From the IMG/VR virus record IMGVR_UViG_3300025133_000049, positions 30,788 through 94,787 of that record: a stretch of 64,000 nt of DNA. One strand, 5' to 3'. Shown here piece after piece: positions 6,202 through 15,994 of the stretch. The notes beneath the pieces are model-generated. The model searched no databases. It was not told where the DNA came from and saw nothing but the letters and a program-made list of their open reading frames with translations. The stretch comes from a virus. The translations under genes and the position numbers were made by a program. The first letter of the stretch is position 1; each line of letters starts with the position of its first letter.

Positions 6202-6249
6202 TTTCGGTCCCAGATGGGGCACGAAAAACAACATATCTTGAAATTGCGA

Positions 6250-6274
6250 GCGCCCTAGCGGGCGCTTTTGTATT
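6250..6274 (+). terminator. Rho-independent terminator
   Basis: GCGCCC-TAGC-GGGCGC is a perfect 6-bp GC stem with a 4-nt loop (6250-6265), followed by TTTTGTATTT. It ends the 4758-6201 unit just before the next promoter. Confidence 0.85.
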
Positions 6275-6286
6275 TAATAACAAAAA

Positions 6287-6335
6287 TTGTTTCGTATTAT
6301 AATAATTTTTATTACCTTTGTCAGAACAACAAAAG
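6287..6335 (+). promoter_or_regulatory. Promoter P1 with conserved start region
   Basis: TTG at 6287-6289 and TACCTTTG at 6313-6320 (23-bp spacer) match the Bacteroidota vegetative promoter. Four bases further on is AACAACAAAAG (6325-6335), which recurs at the same place in P2 (13344) and P3 (56787). It sits between a terminator and the packaging gene block, so it should drive 6343 onward. Confidence 0.75.
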
Positions 6336-6342
6336 ATAAAAT

Positions 6343-6942
6343 ATGGACATCCTACAAAACAAGACAGTCGTGATCCCTATACAAGCTGGATCAGGAGAAC
6401 TGCTCAAGACTTACTTGAGGATATTTCTCGCGAAGATACGACTAACAGAAAATCAATTAGATGTCGCAAGTGCTTTAATCCCTAGATACGCTCAGTATGT
6501 AAATGATGGGGTAAGAGAACCTTACGCATCAACCTTATTATTCTCTACCAAAAACAGAAAAGATATAGCTAAGGAGCTTAAAATATCACAGGCCCATATG
6601 AACAATACGTTCTCAGCCCTGTTGGATAAAGGTATCCTAGCTAAAAATACAGATATTGGATACATGTTAGATCCGGGATTAGTCCCATGTAATGAACTTA
6701 TATTTAGGTTCTCAACAGAAGAGTATGAAAAACAAAGACAAGATACTCCGAGAAGTGTCGAAGAAGTTGAACCTACCCCTGAACCAAGTAGAGCAAGTAG
6801 TATTGAGCCAACTGAACCTGGCGCGTACAACAATGATGAACAAAACACAGAAGACAGTGTATCTGAGGAAAGTGGGTTATTGGATACCGACATCGATCAA
6901 GAAGAATCTTTACGCCCAAAGATCACAGACCATTATGAATAA
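6343..6942 (+). CDS. 199-aa winged-helix DNA-binding protein
   Basis: Residues about 25-60 are helical and residues 70-98 form a helix-turn-helix or winged helix (KDIAKELKISQAHMNNTFSALLDKGIL). Residues 125-199 are an acidic, Pro/Ser/Glu-rich tail that is probably disordered. A DNA-binding protein directly after promoter P1 and ahead of the terminase could be a late regulator or a DNA-recognition component of packaging; I cannot choose. The last 218 bp also encode most of the IHF/HU-like protein in another frame. Codon use in this frame resembles the neighbours, so both frames appear to be translated. Confidence 0.75.
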   Translation: MDILQNKTVVIPIQAGSGELLKTYLRIFLAKIRLTENQLDVASALIPRYAQYVNDGVREPYASTLLFSTKNRKDIAKELKISQAHMNNTFSALLDKGILAKNTDIGYMLDPGLVPCNELIFRFSTEEYEKQRQDTPRSVEEVEPTPEPSRASSIEPTEPGAYNNDEQNTEDSVSEESGLLDTDIDQEESLRPKITDHYE

Positions 6943-6988
6943 CAAACAACAATCAATTATAAACGAGGATGATCCTCTAGAATTTTAA
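6725..6988 (+). CDS. IHF/HU-like DNA-binding protein overlapping the previous gene
   Basis: I start at ATG 6725 (MKNKDKILREVSKKLNLP), giving 87 aa; an upstream ATG at 6692 also exists. Residues 1-60 follow the IHF/HU-like pattern of small phage proteins of Bacteroidota: helix, LP, a hydrophobic helix with SQ, then a strand region (KTVYLRKVGYWIP). Such proteins bend DNA, here perhaps for packaging or regulation. The frame is +1 relative to the winged-helix gene, and 218 of its 264 bp lie inside that gene. Codon use (CTG, CCG, GTG, TCG) is unlike the AT-rich neighbours, as expected when a sequence is constrained by a second frame. Confidence 0.6.
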   Translation: MKNKDKILREVSKKLNLPLNQVEQVVLSQLNLARTTMMNKTQKTVYLRKVGYWIPTSIKKNLYAQRSQTIMNNKQQSIINEDDPLEF

Positions 6989-6991
6989 ATT

Positions 6992-7744
6992 ATGAGTAAA
7001 GAAGCTAAATTAGTATTTGACATTACAAGTTTACCTACAGGATTATCACCAGCAGACTTTGTAAGAATGTATGACCAACATGGGCTGGTGTTTTGGGATA
7101 GTGAGAAAAACGGCATTAAACCCAAACTGTTCACAGGACCTGACCCATCAAAAGGAGAAGAAACAATTATTGTAGATACCAAAGGGAAAGAACTTGATCT
7201 AGAAACTTTCAATAAAGAGTTCGTTGACCACGAGAAGTGGGATAAGGAATTACACTACTGTTTAAATTCAGCGGTTTATTATTGGAATAATTATGGATCC
7301 CCTGCTTACCCGGTCACTAGAGATAGTGAAGCAGCCTTCCTAAAGTCTCTCAATCTTTCAGACCTGTCCGATGTGAAGGACTCTGATGATGCGGCGAAAC
7401 TTTGGGAAGCTCAGAAGGGTAAGGTAAAAGAAGCTCTAAAGCATGTAAACAAAGAACATCTTCAAGAAAGAGCTGTGGTTATGGAAGCTATGAAAGGAGC
7501 TTATTATGAAGAGGTGACTAAGATTGAAAAGGTTCTAGCTGATAAGGTAAAACTTCATGATAAGAATGGAGATAAGCTTATTGAAATTGAAGCTATCCAA
7601 AATATTGTAGGGAAAATTAAAACAGTTTCCCCTATCCCAGAGGAATACAGTAAGTATAGAAATAGAAAAATGAAGTGGGATCACCATATGTTAATAGCTA
7701 CTGATTATGCAGTTCTATTAAATATAGCTTATAAATTACTTTAA
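6992..7744 (+). CDS. 250-aa conserved-position protein before the terminase
   Basis: A soluble, mainly helical protein (start MSKEAKLVFDITSLPTGLS). Residues 75-105 are aromatic-rich (HYCLNSAVYYWNNYGSPAYP) and residues 140-220 are charged and helical, likely a coiled coil. It lies three bases after the IHF-like gene, upstream of the terminase. A packaging-related role is inferred from position; I recognise no motif. Confidence 0.7.
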   Translation: MSKEAKLVFDITSLPTGLSPADFVRMYDQHGLVFWDSEKNGIKPKLFTGPDPSKGEETIIVDTKGKELDLETFNKEFVDHEKWDKELHYCLNSAVYYWNNYGSPAYPVTRDSEAAFLKSLNLSDLSDVKDSDDAAKLWEAQKGKVKEALKHVNKEHLQERAVVMEAMKGAYYEEVTKIEKVLADKVKLHDKNGDKLIEIEAIQNIVGKIKTVSPIPEEYSKYRNRKMKWDHHMLIATDYAVLLNIAYKLL

Positions 7745-7745
7745 T

Positions 7746-7847
7746 ATGGTGGTAGTAAAAATTCAAACAGGTATGGATATCTTAGGTATCCAGCCTGTTT
7801 ATGTAACACATTATTTGTATGAGCATTCAACGACATCCGGTAGATAG
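7746..7847 (+). CDS. 33-aa small ORF
   Basis: A 33-residue frame (start MVVVKIQTGMDILGIQ) fills the gap between two genes and overlaps the next start by 29 bp. The same bases form a strong hairpin (7765-7800), so conservation here could be for RNA structure rather than protein. Weakly supported. Confidence 0.3.
   Translation: MVVVKIQTGMDILGIQPVYVTHYLYEHSTTSGR
7765..7800 (+). other. Long hairpin before the terminase genes
   Basis: AAACAGG at 7765-7771 pairs with CCTGTTT at 7794-7800, and inside it GGATA at 7775-7779 pairs with TATCC at 7787-7791. There is no T-run after it, so it is more likely an attenuator, RNA-processing site or translation control element than a terminator. Confidence 0.5.
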
Positions 7848-8457
7848 CTATGATAAAAAGCTAAATTTTTGGGAGGAATTTCCTGACTATAAAGTTCACC
7901 GACAATTCGGCGACTTCTGGAGGAACAATAAAAAGGCAGGCCAATTACAAAATAGTTCACTATTTATGTGGGCTTTGTCTTTGTGCTATGATAGGAAGAG
8001 TGTATTTTTTGCTCAACCGGAATTAGATAAATGGGAAGTTGTAGGAGAAGACCTCTTTCAGGATTCAAAATTTCTTCGTAAATTAGCCGAGGATCCAGAA
8101 AGTGCTGAACTGGTATTTGTACCAGGCGGGCACATAAGGGATCTAGTGTTAGCTTTCGAGGAAACAATTGATACTCCTCTTGGGATTTCGTTACGTAATA
8201 TGGAGAGGAAGTTTGCAGAAAGAACTAAGTTCATGATGGAAACAGATTATTCCATGGACTATTATGAAACTTCTGAGCAAGGTCGTAAGTTCTTGGTTAA
8301 AGGGACAGCGGATCAATTGGACAAGATGTTTGTTAACACAGATAAAATAGATAATTTATTAACTAAAGCTCTAGACGCATTACGCGCGGCTGAAGGATCT
8401 GGTACTGCTAAAGGTGGCGCTCAAGAAAGTTTAGCAGACGGAGACGCTGATTTCTAA
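7819..8457 (+). CDS. 212-aa protein, possible small terminase subunit
   Basis: A 212-residue soluble protein (start MSIQRHPVDSYDKKLNFWEE). The N-terminal part is aromatic-rich, residues 120-190 are helical, and the end is a Gly/Ala/Asp-rich flexible tail. It overlaps the large terminase start by one base (TAATG), the position often taken by the small terminase subunit. I see no classical helix-turn-helix, so this is a positional guess. Confidence 0.55.
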   Translation: MSIQRHPVDSYDKKLNFWEEFPDYKVHRQFGDFWRNNKKAGQLQNSSLFMWALSLCYDRKSVFFAQPELDKWEVVGEDLFQDSKFLRKLAEDPESAELVFVPGGHIRDLVLAFEETIDTPLGISLRNMERKFAERTKFMMETDYSMDYYETSEQGRKFLVKGTADQLDKMFVNTDKIDNLLTKALDALRAAEGSGTAKGGAQESLADGDADF

Positions 8458-10763
8458 TGGCTACACCTATCCACGATGACATGTGGATCTTGTATAAAAA
8501 CAAGATACCAACACACCTAGTAAAACTAGCTACGAAGATACCTGTGATGAACCCGCTAGGTATCAAGTATAAGCGTTGGTGGAAAAGAGAAAAACGGAAA
8601 TGTATTGAGGGTTTGTGGGTTAATCATGACGGAGTTCACAAACACGTCTCTGGCCCTCTTTACTATTTCGTTAATTTTCATCATATACTTCTAACAGAAA
8701 AAGGATCGCGTACCATGTCAAAGAGACAAGGGTTACCGATGCTCAGAGATTTAGAATGGATCAAATCCTTTGTATATGAGGAAGCCAGAGGGTTCTCGGG
8801 GTTTGAGAATGATGATAAATATTCTTGTCATAGAATACTGGGTGAGGTAGATCCAAATAAAAATCCTGAAGAGTTCGAAAGTTTACTCATGGAATATGGG
8901 GCACCTAAACTGGTTAAAACATCTATCACTAGGGCAGACGGGACCTTCAAAAAATATAAACCTGCTCGGGAGTATCTGTATGAATACCAATCGGAAGACT
9001 TAGGTAAACCTATGTATTTCAATATGATGTCAAATGTAGCTGATATGGAATCCAGGGGTGGAGGTAAATCCTATTGGGGTTCTGCTATGTTAGACCATAA
9101 CTTCTTATTTGATGGAGCCAACAACTACGAGGATTACCTCGAGTACAAAGCAGCAAAAGTTCCACTATCTTCGGAATCTTTAGTTGGTGCAATTGATACA
9201 AAATATTCTAATGATGTTATAGCCAAAATGAAGCTAGCCTTGGAGAACTTACCAGGTAAAGTGACTATTGGTAAAACAACATATCCTTCCCCTTTCCATA
9301 GAGAATATCATGGTGATTGGAAATCCGGTGGTACTATTATAGCTGGTTACGATAAAAAGATAGGAGGTACTTGGATTAAAGTAGGTACTAAATCTAAAAT
9401 ACAACATAGATCTTTCAATAGTAATCATACGGCGGCCAATGGTACCAGACCTTCTTTTTCACTTATTGATGAGGTTGGTTTTATGAATAATCTTATTGCA
9501 GTTCTAGGACAAATGAAAGAAGCTGCAGCCGACGGTACCGTAAAATCCGGGTGTATCTGGATGACAGGTACCGGTGGGGATATGATAGGTGGTGCTACAG
9601 AACAGGTAAAAGATGTTTTTTATTCTCCGGAATCTTATGATTGCTTAGCATTTGATGATGAATTTGAGGGATATAAAAACAAAATAGGATTCTTTGTACC
9701 AACCTGGATGACATTAAATCAGTTTAAAGATGATCTAGGAAATACTGATTGGAGAAAATCTACAGCTTATATTGAAAAGAAAAGAGCTATATTGAAGAAA
9801 AATGCTAAGAAGAAAGATGTATATGAAAATGAAATAGTACAGAGACCTACCACGCATAGTGAGGTATTCTTGTTAGCAAATAACAGTATCCTACCTACAG
9901 TGGATCTGAAAGAACACATGGATCACTTACTTACTATGCAAGATGAACCTGAGATAAAAGGTATGCATGGTTGGATGGTGCTGGATGCAGATGGATCCCC
10001 TAAATTTAAGTTTGATTCTACTACATATAAACCTACAGATTATCCGGTTAAAGCCTCCGATGAAAATACAGGAGCTGTAGTTATTTGGGAGCATCCGGAA
10101 GAAGGTAGTCAATATGGGTGGTATGTAGGAGGTAATGACCCGTATGATTTTGATATAGCTCCAAACTCGGTATCATTAGGATCTACATTTATAATAAAAA
10201 GAGGTACACCCCTTAACGGTGGGGCCGATAGAATAGTAGCCGAGTATACAGGAAGACCTCAACTAGCTTCAGATTTCTATGAACAAACCAGAAGACTAGC
10301 AGCTTACTTTGGTAATGCTCCTATATTATATGAAAATGAAAAACAACAAATAAAAGAACACTTCAAAAAGATGCATTCACTTGCATTACTTGCCTATACT
10401 CCAGGAGTTCTCAAAGCAAATGAGACATCTAAGACAGCTGCGACGAGGGTTTACGGTCAACATATGAGTACACAAATAAAAGATGAGTGTGAAATTTATT
10501 TGAGAGAATGGCTTTTATCTCCAATTGGTGACGGAAAATTGCAATTACATACAATAAAATCCATACCTTTGCTAAAAGAACTGATTTCTTACAACGTTGA
10601 GGGTAACTTTGATAGAGTTATCGCTCTGATGTTGGGTATCATTCAATTAATACAGATGAGGTCAGTAGTAGCAGAAAAGAAAGAAGAGGTTGTTAAACAG
10701 GATCCCTTTTTTACAAGAAAACTTTTTGCAGGTAATATGCGAAATAATAATTCAATATTTTAA
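8457..10763 (+). CDS. terL: Large terminase subunit (packaging ATPase-nuclease)
   Basis: This 768-aa protein should be the motor that translocates DNA into the prohead and cuts it. Residues 198-205 (ESRGGGKS) form the P-loop (Walker A). Residues 333-339 (FSLIDEV) give Walker B with D338 and catalytic E339. A short Thr-rich coupling motif (WMTGTGG) follows near residue 365. The RNase-H-like nuclease begins near residue 555, with D561 in GGNDPYDFD as the likely first metal ligand. The length is large for terminases but usual for the crAss-like branch. It follows the putative small subunit and precedes the portal by 3 bp. Confidence 0.93.
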   Translation: MATPIHDDMWILYKNKIPTHLVKLATKIPVMNPLGIKYKRWWKREKRKCIEGLWVNHDGVHKHVSGPLYYFVNFHHILLTEKGSRTMSKRQGLPMLRDLEWIKSFVYEEARGFSGFENDDKYSCHRILGEVDPNKNPEEFESLLMEYGAPKLVKTSITRADGTFKKYKPAREYLYEYQSEDLGKPMYFNMMSNVADMESRGGGKSYWGSAMLDHNFLFDGANNYEDYLEYKAAKVPLSSESLVGAIDTKYSNDVIAKMKLALENLPGKVTIGKTTYPSPFHREYHGDWKSGGTIIAGYDKKIGGTWIKVGTKSKIQHRSFNSNHTAANGTRPSFSLIDEVGFMNNLIAVLGQMKEAAADGTVKSGCIWMTGTGGDMIGGATEQVKDVFYSPESYDCLAFDDEFEGYKNKIGFFVPTWMTLNQFKDDLGNTDWRKSTAYIEKKRAILKKNAKKKDVYENEIVQRPTTHSEVFLLANNSILPTVDLKEHMDHLLTMQDEPEIKGMHGWMVLDADGSPKFKFDSTTYKPTDYPVKASDENTGAVVIWEHPEEGSQYGWYVGGNDPYDFDIAPNSVSLGSTFIIKRGTPLNGGADRIVAEYTGRPQLASDFYEQTRRLAAYFGNAPILYENEKQQIKEHFKKMHSLALLAYTPGVLKANETSKTAATRVYGQHMSTQIKDECEIYLREWLLSPIGDGKLQLHTIKSIPLLKELISYNVEGNFDRVIALMLGIIQLIQMRSVVAEKKEEVVKQDPFFTRKLFAGNMRNNNSIF

Positions 10764-13259: not shown

Positions 13260-13307
13260 TTATGAATCAAGACATTATATTTATTTAAATATTTTTCATA
13301 ATAATTT

Positions 13308-13354
13308 TTGTTATGAGTCATAATTTTGTAGTATATTTGTAGCAACAACAAAAG
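13308..13354 (+). promoter_or_regulatory. Promoter P2 with palindromic operator-like site
   Basis: TTG at 13308-13310 and TATATTTG at 13332-13339 (21-bp spacer) form a strong match to the host promoter, followed after 4 bases by AACAACAAAAG (13344-13354). The spacer contains the inverted repeat TTATGAGTCATAA (13311-13323), and a related half-plus site TTATGAATCA lies at 13260-13269. It should drive the scaffold and capsid genes. Confidence 0.75.
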
Positions 13355-14542: not shown

Positions 14543-15994
14543 ATGTTTCAAACAGATGTATCACCATTACAGTTGCACAAATTACGTGCACTTCCTGCGG
14601 GTATGACTGAATCAGATCACCTTTCCCAGGCCTACCTAACCGAGCCTGAAAAGATGGATTCTGTTTTAGCGTATGCCTTTGGGACACAAAACGAAACTGT
14701 TCTGTCAATGTTGACAGGCGGTATCGGTAACACTAGATTCGTAAGCAACCGAGAATATACTTGGGATCTTCACGGACAAACTGAAAGAGCTATTGTTGTT
14801 TCAGGTGCTTTGGCTAACCCAGCAAGTGCTGGTTTGAATGGCCAACCTTTCCGTTTTAAAATGGAAGAAGGTATTTTCCAGATTTCAGATAACTTAGTTT
14901 CTGATGACGGTACTCAATGTAGAGTTTCTAATATGGTTTCTAACGGTATTGACTATATCTACACTGCAGTTCTTACAGATCCAGATCCTAAAAAATTCAT
15001 CGCAGCTAGTCAATTAGCAGCCGGTGCACGTTTCTCTAAAGATTTCTCTACTGTTGAGGAGTTCTCTGACAAAGGTGGTGGAACTGATTTCGTTGCTCCT
15101 ATGACTTTGAAAAATCAATTAACTACTTTACGTAAGCATTATGCAGTATCAAGATCTGCAGCTACTGACGTTATGGTTATTGAGCTTTTCTCTGAAGACG
15201 GGCAATCTACAAAACTTTGGACTAAATTGGCTGAGTGGACTGCACTTGCACAATGGTACAAAGAAATTGACAGATCATTTATCTATACAATCTATAATAA
15301 AGATTCTAAAGGTGAAGTGAGATTACAAGGTAAAAACAAGCGCCCTGTTTATCATGGTGCTGGTATCAGACAACAAATTTCTCCTGCTAATAAGTTATAC
15401 TTAGCTGAATACACTTATGATGTATTGGATGAATACTTGTTAGATTTATCATATAATGCAGACCGTTGGGGTGGAGATTACAATTTTGTAGCCCTTACAG
15501 GTAAGATGGGTATCAGAGAGTTTAATAAGGCTGTCCTTAAGAAACAAAGTGATATGGGAATTACTGTTACAAATTCAGGTACTTTTATTACCGGTTCAGG
15601 TAGTAACTTGACTTTAACAGGACATTTCAAAAAAGTAGAATTCCTTAATGGTATTTCTCTTACAGTAAAAGAATTTTCTCCTTATGATGATAAGGTGAGA
15701 AATAGAACTTTACATCCAGTATCTAAGAAACCTCTTGAGTCATACAGAATGACTATTTTGAATTTCGGTACTGTTAAAGGTAAAGCTAATATTAGAAAGG
15801 TAGCGAAGAAAAACTCTGAAAACGCCATGTGGTATGTTGCAGGTTCTACTACTCCTTTCGGTGAAGTTGCAAACTCATTGAACGTTTTACGTTCTAATGG
15901 TGTTGATGGATATGAAGTACATATGCTTGCAGAAGTTGGTATTCAAATCCAAGATCCTACTTCTTGTGGTGAAATCATCATGAGATTAAACTAA
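14543..15994 (+). CDS. Major capsid protein
   Basis: This 483-aa protein has the position and length of the crAss-like HK97-fold capsid protein. It begins MFQTDVSPLQLHKLRALPAG. Codon use shifts toward frequent C-ending, highly expressed forms, and a hairpin with a weak T-run follows it (15999-16019), as expected for the most abundant virion protein. The leader is AAATTAAATTAAATATT, with no Shine-Dalgarno sequence. I infer the fold from context rather than from a diagnostic motif. Confidence 0.8.
   Translation: MFQTDVSPLQLHKLRALPAGMTESDHLSQAYLTEPEKMDSVLAYAFGTQNETVLSMLTGGIGNTRFVSNREYTWDLHGQTERAIVVSGALANPASAGLNGQPFRFKMEEGIFQISDNLVSDDGTQCRVSNMVSNGIDYIYTAVLTDPDPKKFIAASQLAAGARFSKDFSTVEEFSDKGGGTDFVAPMTLKNQLTTLRKHYAVSRSAATDVMVIELFSEDGQSTKLWTKLAEWTALAQWYKEIDRSFIYTIYNKDSKGEVRLQGKNKRPVYHGAGIRQQISPANKLYLAEYTYDVLDEYLLDLSYNADRWGGDYNFVALTGKMGIREFNKAVLKKQSDMGITVTNSGTFITGSGSNLTLTGHFKKVEFLNGISLTVKEFSPYDDKVRNRTLHPVSKKPLESYRMTILNFGTVKGKANIRKVAKKNSENAMWYVAGSTTPFGEVANSLNVLRSNGVDGYEVHMLAEVGIQIQDPTSCGEIIMRLN

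Follow-up and report, generated by a model that had tools for sequence, protein, structure and literature searches.

Two overlapping genes ahead of the terminase block

The window, the 64,000-nt stretch of DNA that we analyzed, is part of a 94.8-kb virus record of a crAss-like phage. It contains an outer open reading frame of 199 amino acids (6343-6942, plus strand, stop codon TAA) and an inner one of 87 amino acids (6725-6988, plus strand), counted from a Met conserved in its family. The inner frame is open from 6692, where an upstream ATG provides an alternative opening. The two frames share 218 nt (6725-6942) on the same strand with the inner frame at +1, and the shared stretch covers 82% of the conserved HU-like gene. 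A preliminary description of this DNA had placed a 218-nt, same-strand, +1 overlap in the 3′ part of the outer gene, with coordinates that the list of open reading frames bears out. Because the identical overlap occurs in a second record, IMGVR_UViG_3300008050_000216 (L002), which differs from the window at two positions in 12.8 kb and at none in the overlap, it is no one-off error of assembly. The genes and coding features are listed below.

6343-6942, plus strand: outer gene, encoding a predicted winged-helix DNA-binding protein with an acidic, disordered C-terminal tail (open reading frame, AF2 model, structural comparison, core kept in relatives)
6343-6723, plus strand: conserved winged-helix core, taking up about 127 codons of the outer gene (alignments), equal to the whole-protein length in short-overlap relatives
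6724-6939, plus strand: overprinted outer tail, with a net charge of -16 in the 73 residues that were counted behind the core
6725-6988, plus strand: inner gene, encoding a predicted HU/IHF-fold protein of 87 amino acids without a DNA-clasping arm (AF2, VIA-align, PF00216 and phrog_379 family matches)
6725-6942, plus strand: putative dual-coding overlap, 218 nt (open reading frames, second record, codon statistics)
6992-7744, plus strand: conserved downstream gene, 250 amino acids, syntenic in relatives
7819-8457, plus strand: gene directly upstream of TerL, in the position of crAssphage gene 86 (synteny)
8457-10763, plus strand: terminase large subunit, TerL (phrog_6681, 2.1e-93; TerL of Cellulophaga phage phi14:2, 9e-80)

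crAssphage gene 86, which adjoins terL, has been proposed as TerS (PMC7886860). The phage can be assigned to Crassvirales by its crAss-type TerL and major capsid protein (14543-15994; match to phrog_11589, 3.8e-106) and by a gene order as in phi14:2; the TerL relatives among named genomes are crAss-like phages such as phi14:2.

Predicted structures of the two proteins

The AF2 model of the inner protein (mean pLDDT of 86) has the order helix-helix-strand-strand-long helix (HH-beta-beta-H). The best 29 matches in the VIA-align comparison were all HU/IHF-type chains, headed by 1b8z (Z of 6.0 and r.m.s.d. of 3.9 over 55 residues), and this uniformity makes the middling Z of 6.0 more credible. PF00216 was matched by 10 of the 15 members of the inner family (best 5.3e-7) and phrog_379 by 11 of the 15; the window protein on its own did not match PF00216, nor did a PF00216 search of the window's own genome return a match, and Foldseek alone gave no significant match for the inner or the outer model. 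The model, the structural list and the family matches indicate that the N-terminal alpha1-alpha2 helices and first beta strands of HU are present. The beta-ribbon DNA-clasping arm with its intercalating tip is absent from the model, which runs from the second strand into helix 56-82, and no arm-like stretch was found in the inner-family alignment. Of the earlier label "IHF/HU-like", the N-terminal half is therefore supported by fold and PF00216 family matches, and the canonical IHF part falls with the missing arm; we accordingly name the protein HU-like, not IHF. An IHF encoded in the structural block of crAss phages has been given a proposed role in DNA compaction (Yutin et al., PMC7886860). 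The window protein shares with HU/IHF (PF00216) and with crAss IHF_53 and IHF_54 (PMC7886860) the HU N-terminal helices and first strands and a location in the virion/packaging block, but in its model the beta-ribbon arm is missing and the C-terminal helix is long, and its gene lies upstream of TerS/TerL. One member of the inner family, the HU-like protein of L007 (3537-3782), is without the C-terminal E-E/D-P-x-x-F motif carried by most of its clade.

For the outer protein, the AF2 model has pLDDT values above 90 over much of residues 20-110 and mostly 54-68 in the tail, which is predicted to be disordered. A helix-turn-helix followed by a beta wing is recognizable at high pLDDT (helices 61-66, 69-79 and 83-95; strands 99-102 and 106-109), and the alignment shows this winged-helix core to be conserved in relatives. 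Comparison with the PDB gave a list filled with winged-helix proteins, led by RepA-type initiators at Z of 8.4 (7.6-8.4 for RepA domains). RepL (PF05732) was matched weakly in 8 of 18 members (E of 6e-4). The winged-helix core is thus what the outer protein has in common with RepL, the RepA N-domain (4pql, 4pt7, 5kbj) and DnaD initiators; unlike these replication proteins it is encoded in a late position, and its RepL score of 19.8 bits lies under the cut-off of 20.3.

Distribution in relatives and relative age of the two genes

The relatives compared have 65-72% TerL identity to the window. They keep the order of winged-helix gene, HU-like gene, 250-amino-acid gene, gene in the TerS position and TerL, with small genes inserted in places within the block of some. 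In six of them (L003, L004, L005, L011, L024 and L050) the outer protein stops at about 126-127 residues and its gene overlaps the inner start by 8-17 nt; the overlap is 20 nt in L010, 14 nt in L026 and 8 nt in phi14:2, where the pair is g098/g097. A profile survey of 136 sequences yielded 60 non-redundant winged-helix/HU-like pairs, 53 of which overlap by 0-35 nt and three of which are separated. The remaining four have long overlaps of 131 nt (L007), 218 nt (window), 230 nt (L135) and 257 nt (L008). The pair normally overlaps by about 8-13 nt in crAss-like phages.

The preliminary description had left two alternatives, that the extension of a disordered tail overran an existing gene or that the inner gene arose within the tail. 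The inner gene occurs upstream of TerS/TerL throughout crAss-like phages, short-overlap relatives included, and is therefore ancestral; the outer tail, missing in close relatives whose outer frame stops no more than about 20 nt from the inner start, is the addition. The first alternative agrees with this distribution, and the second is contradicted by inner genes that exist without a long tail. Stop codons in one frame of relatives, which the preliminary description had counted against a pair of translated genes, were found in the outer tail only, in the short-overlap relatives, and therefore date the tail.

Near-identical records aside, the closest relatives found reached about 72% TerL identity. 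Direct searches of named phage genomes with the window proteins gave almost no matches, the relatives having come from profiles and synteny, and trees built from each of the short proteins singly lacked resolution. Two further features were seen among the relatives. Compared with close relatives such as L140 (2574-3035), the winged-helix gene of L105 (2042-2401) changes frame shortly before its 3′ end, by a real change or a sequencing error; and the TerL matches of L066 (6001-9345) and L077 (5805-8987) are about 1 kb longer than usual, which suggests that an insertion or an intron interrupts the terminase gene.

Loss of the outer stop codon and the number of origins

In the short-overlap relatives the outer stop codon is composed of the first few codons of the inner gene, and inner codons 2-4 show how it was lost. 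Where L050 reads ATGAATAAT (outer TAA), L007 reads ATGAACAAC (outer CAA), that is, ATG AAT AAT (outer GAA TAA) against ATG AAC AAC (outer GAA CAA); the T/C difference in inner codon 2 removes the outer stop and is silent in the inner protein (Asn). The inner gene begins with ATG AAA AAC in the window and ATG ACC AAC in L008. In the window lineage the outer stop, situated among the opening codons of the HU-like gene, was probably lost, and translation of the winged-helix gene would now continue in the other frame through 218 nt of the HU-like gene.

Mapped onto the TerL tree, the long-overlap label requires four changes, at least three of which are forced by well-supported (starred) branches. 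L007 is placed among short-overlap phages and L135 in a different clade, and in L135 the long overlap lengthened a tail that existed already. The long overlap thus appears to have arisen independently in at least two related lineages besides that of the window. We estimate two to four origins, only an estimate because the tree is a quick one, L135 sits on a longish branch and some of the changes may be losses and not gains.

A mutational step as easy as this, with one inner-silent difference separating the state of L007 from that of L050 and with the outer frames of L024 and L004 set to extend to +116 once freed of their first stop, would suit a tail that is a neutral by-product, its acidic composition dictated by the HU-like gene. 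That overprinted proteins are commonly disordered (PMC6195259) points the same way.

Selection on both reading frames

The first base of each outer codon is the third position of an inner codon, and the inner-silent sites are the free variable. Our null model fixed the inner protein and drew its codons according to the codon usage of the phage. Under it, the outer frame stays open with an exact probability of 4.1e-4 for the window, 1.5e-2 for L007, 2.2e-3 for L008 and 1.3e-4 for L135, values that need correction for the picking of these four phages from 60 pairs for their long overlap. The composition tests, being conditional on openness, are independent of that picking: the z-score for acidic residues was +5.8 in the window, +3.0 in L007, +2.5 in L008 and +5.3 in L135, and that for hydrophobic residues was -3.4, -4.3, -2.3 and -2.9, respectively. 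A neutral tail in the window would be expected to meet about 9 stops over the inner gene and to contain 14-15% acidic residues, but there is no stop in the overlap and 30% of the residues are acidic. Moreover, the deviation is found in the four long-overlap phages and in no tested short-overlap relative (L003, L004, L005, L010, L011 and L050), where the z-score for acidic residues ranges from -0.3 to +0.8 and the outer frame has 3 to 13 stops. Among 242 tiles of the window's other genes, none is stop-free in the equivalent frame and none is as extreme as the inner segment in stops, acidity, G3 or T3. Permutation of codons within the gene gave P of 0.03 (window), 0.17 (L007) and 0.10 (L008); this is a weaker null, since it retains the aberrant codon composition, in which the signal itself lies. 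Through the otherwise free third positions of the inner gene, the outer extension is kept open, acidic and non-hydrophobic.

Codon usage of the inner gene changes at the end of the overlap. Mean log2 RSCU in the inner frame is -0.45 inside the overlap (z of -5.4, below all 238 gene tiles) and a normal 0.25 past it (z of -0.5), and the outer tail is near normal at 0.17 (z of -1.0). The unusual inner codons, ordinary outer codons and acidic tail of the preliminary description are thus all recovered, the first confined to the overlap and the last with the net charge given above. Abnormal codons inside the overlap only are again not what a neutral tail predicts, and we regard that explanation as improbable. 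Third-position G amounts to 33% in the inner gene against 13% phage-wide, as it might in an HU-like gene acquired from elsewhere with foreign G-ending codons and another frame open by chance. The last 15 codons, past the overlap, are nevertheless normal, the gene has a conserved place and conserved neighbours, and the four phages that show this bias are those with a long overlap, so that we give a foreign origin hardly any credence.

In the reverse test, with the tail fixed, the inner frame of the window scored 69.8 bits against a profile built from short-overlap relatives only, and the null maximum was 27.3; the score is far over the reverse null in all four long-overlap phages. The inner gene is still constrained. 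Both frames are open, and both are under selection, since the tail is open and acidic beyond the null, the inner codons are aberrant only in the overlap and the inner profile score is kept. By its codon pattern, the overlap appears to be dual-coding for two protein products.

An alternative route to these frames is a +1 ribosomal frameshift near 6690-6940 that joins them and yields some winged-helix/HU fusion. The inner frame is indeed open before its own start, and Pfam PF18291, which describes HU domains fused to winged helices, is weakly matched by two inner-family members. We recognized no slippery signal by eye, however, and in short-overlap relatives a shift would have to take place within about 8 nt; the Met at the inner start lines up with that of the family, and frameshifting leaves the selected outer-frame composition across the whole overlap unexplained. 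We therefore consider a fusion very unlikely.

Frame-specific rates, a check suggested in the preliminary description, were obtained for one pair, L007 and L008, which share the overlap at 63% nucleotide identity (L002 and the window, with 2 differences, and L136 and L137, which are identical, are too close for rate tests). The rate was 0.81 for inner-silent/outer-changing, 0.35 for both-changing and 0.15 for outer-silent/inner-changing differences. For this pair the check speaks for constraint on the inner protein and not for conservation of the tail sequence, which evolves fast. The tails of the four long-overlap phages cannot be aligned beyond what the inner gene imposes. The inner protein is the stricter partner, and the tail is constrained in composition (acidic, polar, disordered) more than in sequence. 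A string GL..LDT shared by the tails of the window and L008 was dropped, as its positions are non-homologous.

Acidic tails outside overlaps

In 23 more distant relatives, the winged-helix protein has 37-88 extra residues encoded in their own DNA, ahead of the usual short overlap. Nineteen of these tails are net acidic and four are not. The sister clade has comparable acidic tails without overlap, many with a shared end like APVIEEEDFDISIAPPNE. These non-overlapping tails of distant relatives lend independent support to the idea that an acidic tail is useful. Tails of this kind lie at the 3′ ends of the winged-helix genes of L018, L100, L106, L110, L112, L116, L119, L127, L128 and L133, and the C-terminal motif near APVIEEEDFDISIAPPNE, kept in many of them, is a possible peptide-binding motif in this one crAss-like clade.

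Promoter, candidate operator and a possible mode of action

The region between the preceding unit and the outer gene contains the following features.

6248-6267, plus strand: intrinsic terminator of the preceding unit
6278-6292, no strand: candidate operator palindrome TAACAAAAATTGTTT, consensus TAACAA-N3-TTGTTA; a similar site in 11 of 11 sequences checked
6290-6293, plus strand: -33-like TTTC, before the -7 element at 6313-6320
6300-6314, no strand: second copy of the candidate operator, TAATAATTTTTATTA
6313-6320, plus strand: TACCTTTG, Bacteroidota-type -7 element (TAnnTTTG), 24-33 nt before the outer ATG in 10 of 10 sequences checked

The palindrome often abuts the -7 box in relatives; the motif was chosen after inspection, and its P values are indicative only. 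A further copy (13299-13313) precedes a second promoter-like site, and both TAnnTTTG promoters head late units.

The winged-helix and HU-like genes are an ancient, probably translationally coupled pair heading the TerS/TerL block. The winged-helix protein may bind the AT-rich palindrome at its own promoter, and perhaps also the copy at 13299; most simply, it would regulate its own gene and have the HU-like protein as its partner in the packaging block. From the charge and disorder of the acidic tail, we infer that it may modulate DNA binding by the winged-helix protein, occupying the basic winged helix in place of DNA, or may instead contact the basic HU-like partner by docking onto it. A long overlap would also remove stop-start coupling, and translation of the HU-like protein would then have to start within the frame of the outer gene; the long-overlap phages are therefore predicted to initiate the HU-like gene independently. 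Taken as a whole, the explanation by stop loss, a selected tail over an ancestral HU-like gene, recurrence, and the putative roles of tail and operator seems to us likely. A bolder and rather doubtful extension is that the regulator repeatedly evolves an acidic tail inside the coding sequence of its operon partner, with the tail binding the basic HU-like partner as an inhibitor, chaperone or charge partner. If so, the interacting surfaces would be encoded by the same bases and would have to co-evolve.

Comparison with known overlaps and tails

Loss of the stop codon of an upstream gene is a known route to same-strand overlaps (route a in PMC2268670; PMC3887535), and the window overlap is alike in origin. 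Such overlaps usually extend over a few nucleotides in the winged-helix/HU-like family, whereas that of the window extends over 218 nt and 82% of a conserved gene, is selected in both frames and is recurrent. In overprinted disordered viral proteins, the newer product is disordered and adapts to the constraints of the older frame (PMC6195259, PMC8227390). The window tail is likewise disordered by prediction, newer and fitted to the older frame, but it prolongs the C-terminus of a DNA-binding protein that existed already and is not a separate gene, and its bias is to acidic residues where theirs is to Arg, Ser and Pro. HMG-box proteins also have an acidic disordered C-terminal tail, which occludes their DNA-binding surface (PMC4207994); they share with the outer protein such a tail on a DNA-binding protein, and since fold and organisms are unrelated this is an analogy only.

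Judged by title and abstract, none of the three papers that a search on crAssphage and overlapping genes gave concerned this locus. The case is new and its kind, overlap by stop loss, is known; it stands out by its length, by an overprinted gene of conserved identity, by selection that can be seen in both frames and by having recurred. A long overlap in a large DNA phage can here be polarized, with the old gene, the new part and the kind of causal mutation all visible, and selection on both frames can be demonstrated from sequence alone. Because the overlap recurred, and because the sister clade has comparable tails without overlap, the phages lend themselves to comparisons on two questions: what leads compact genomes to overprint, and how easily acidic disordered tails evolve as regulatory parts of DNA-binding proteins. 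Gene callers that forbid long overlaps would lose one of the two genes.
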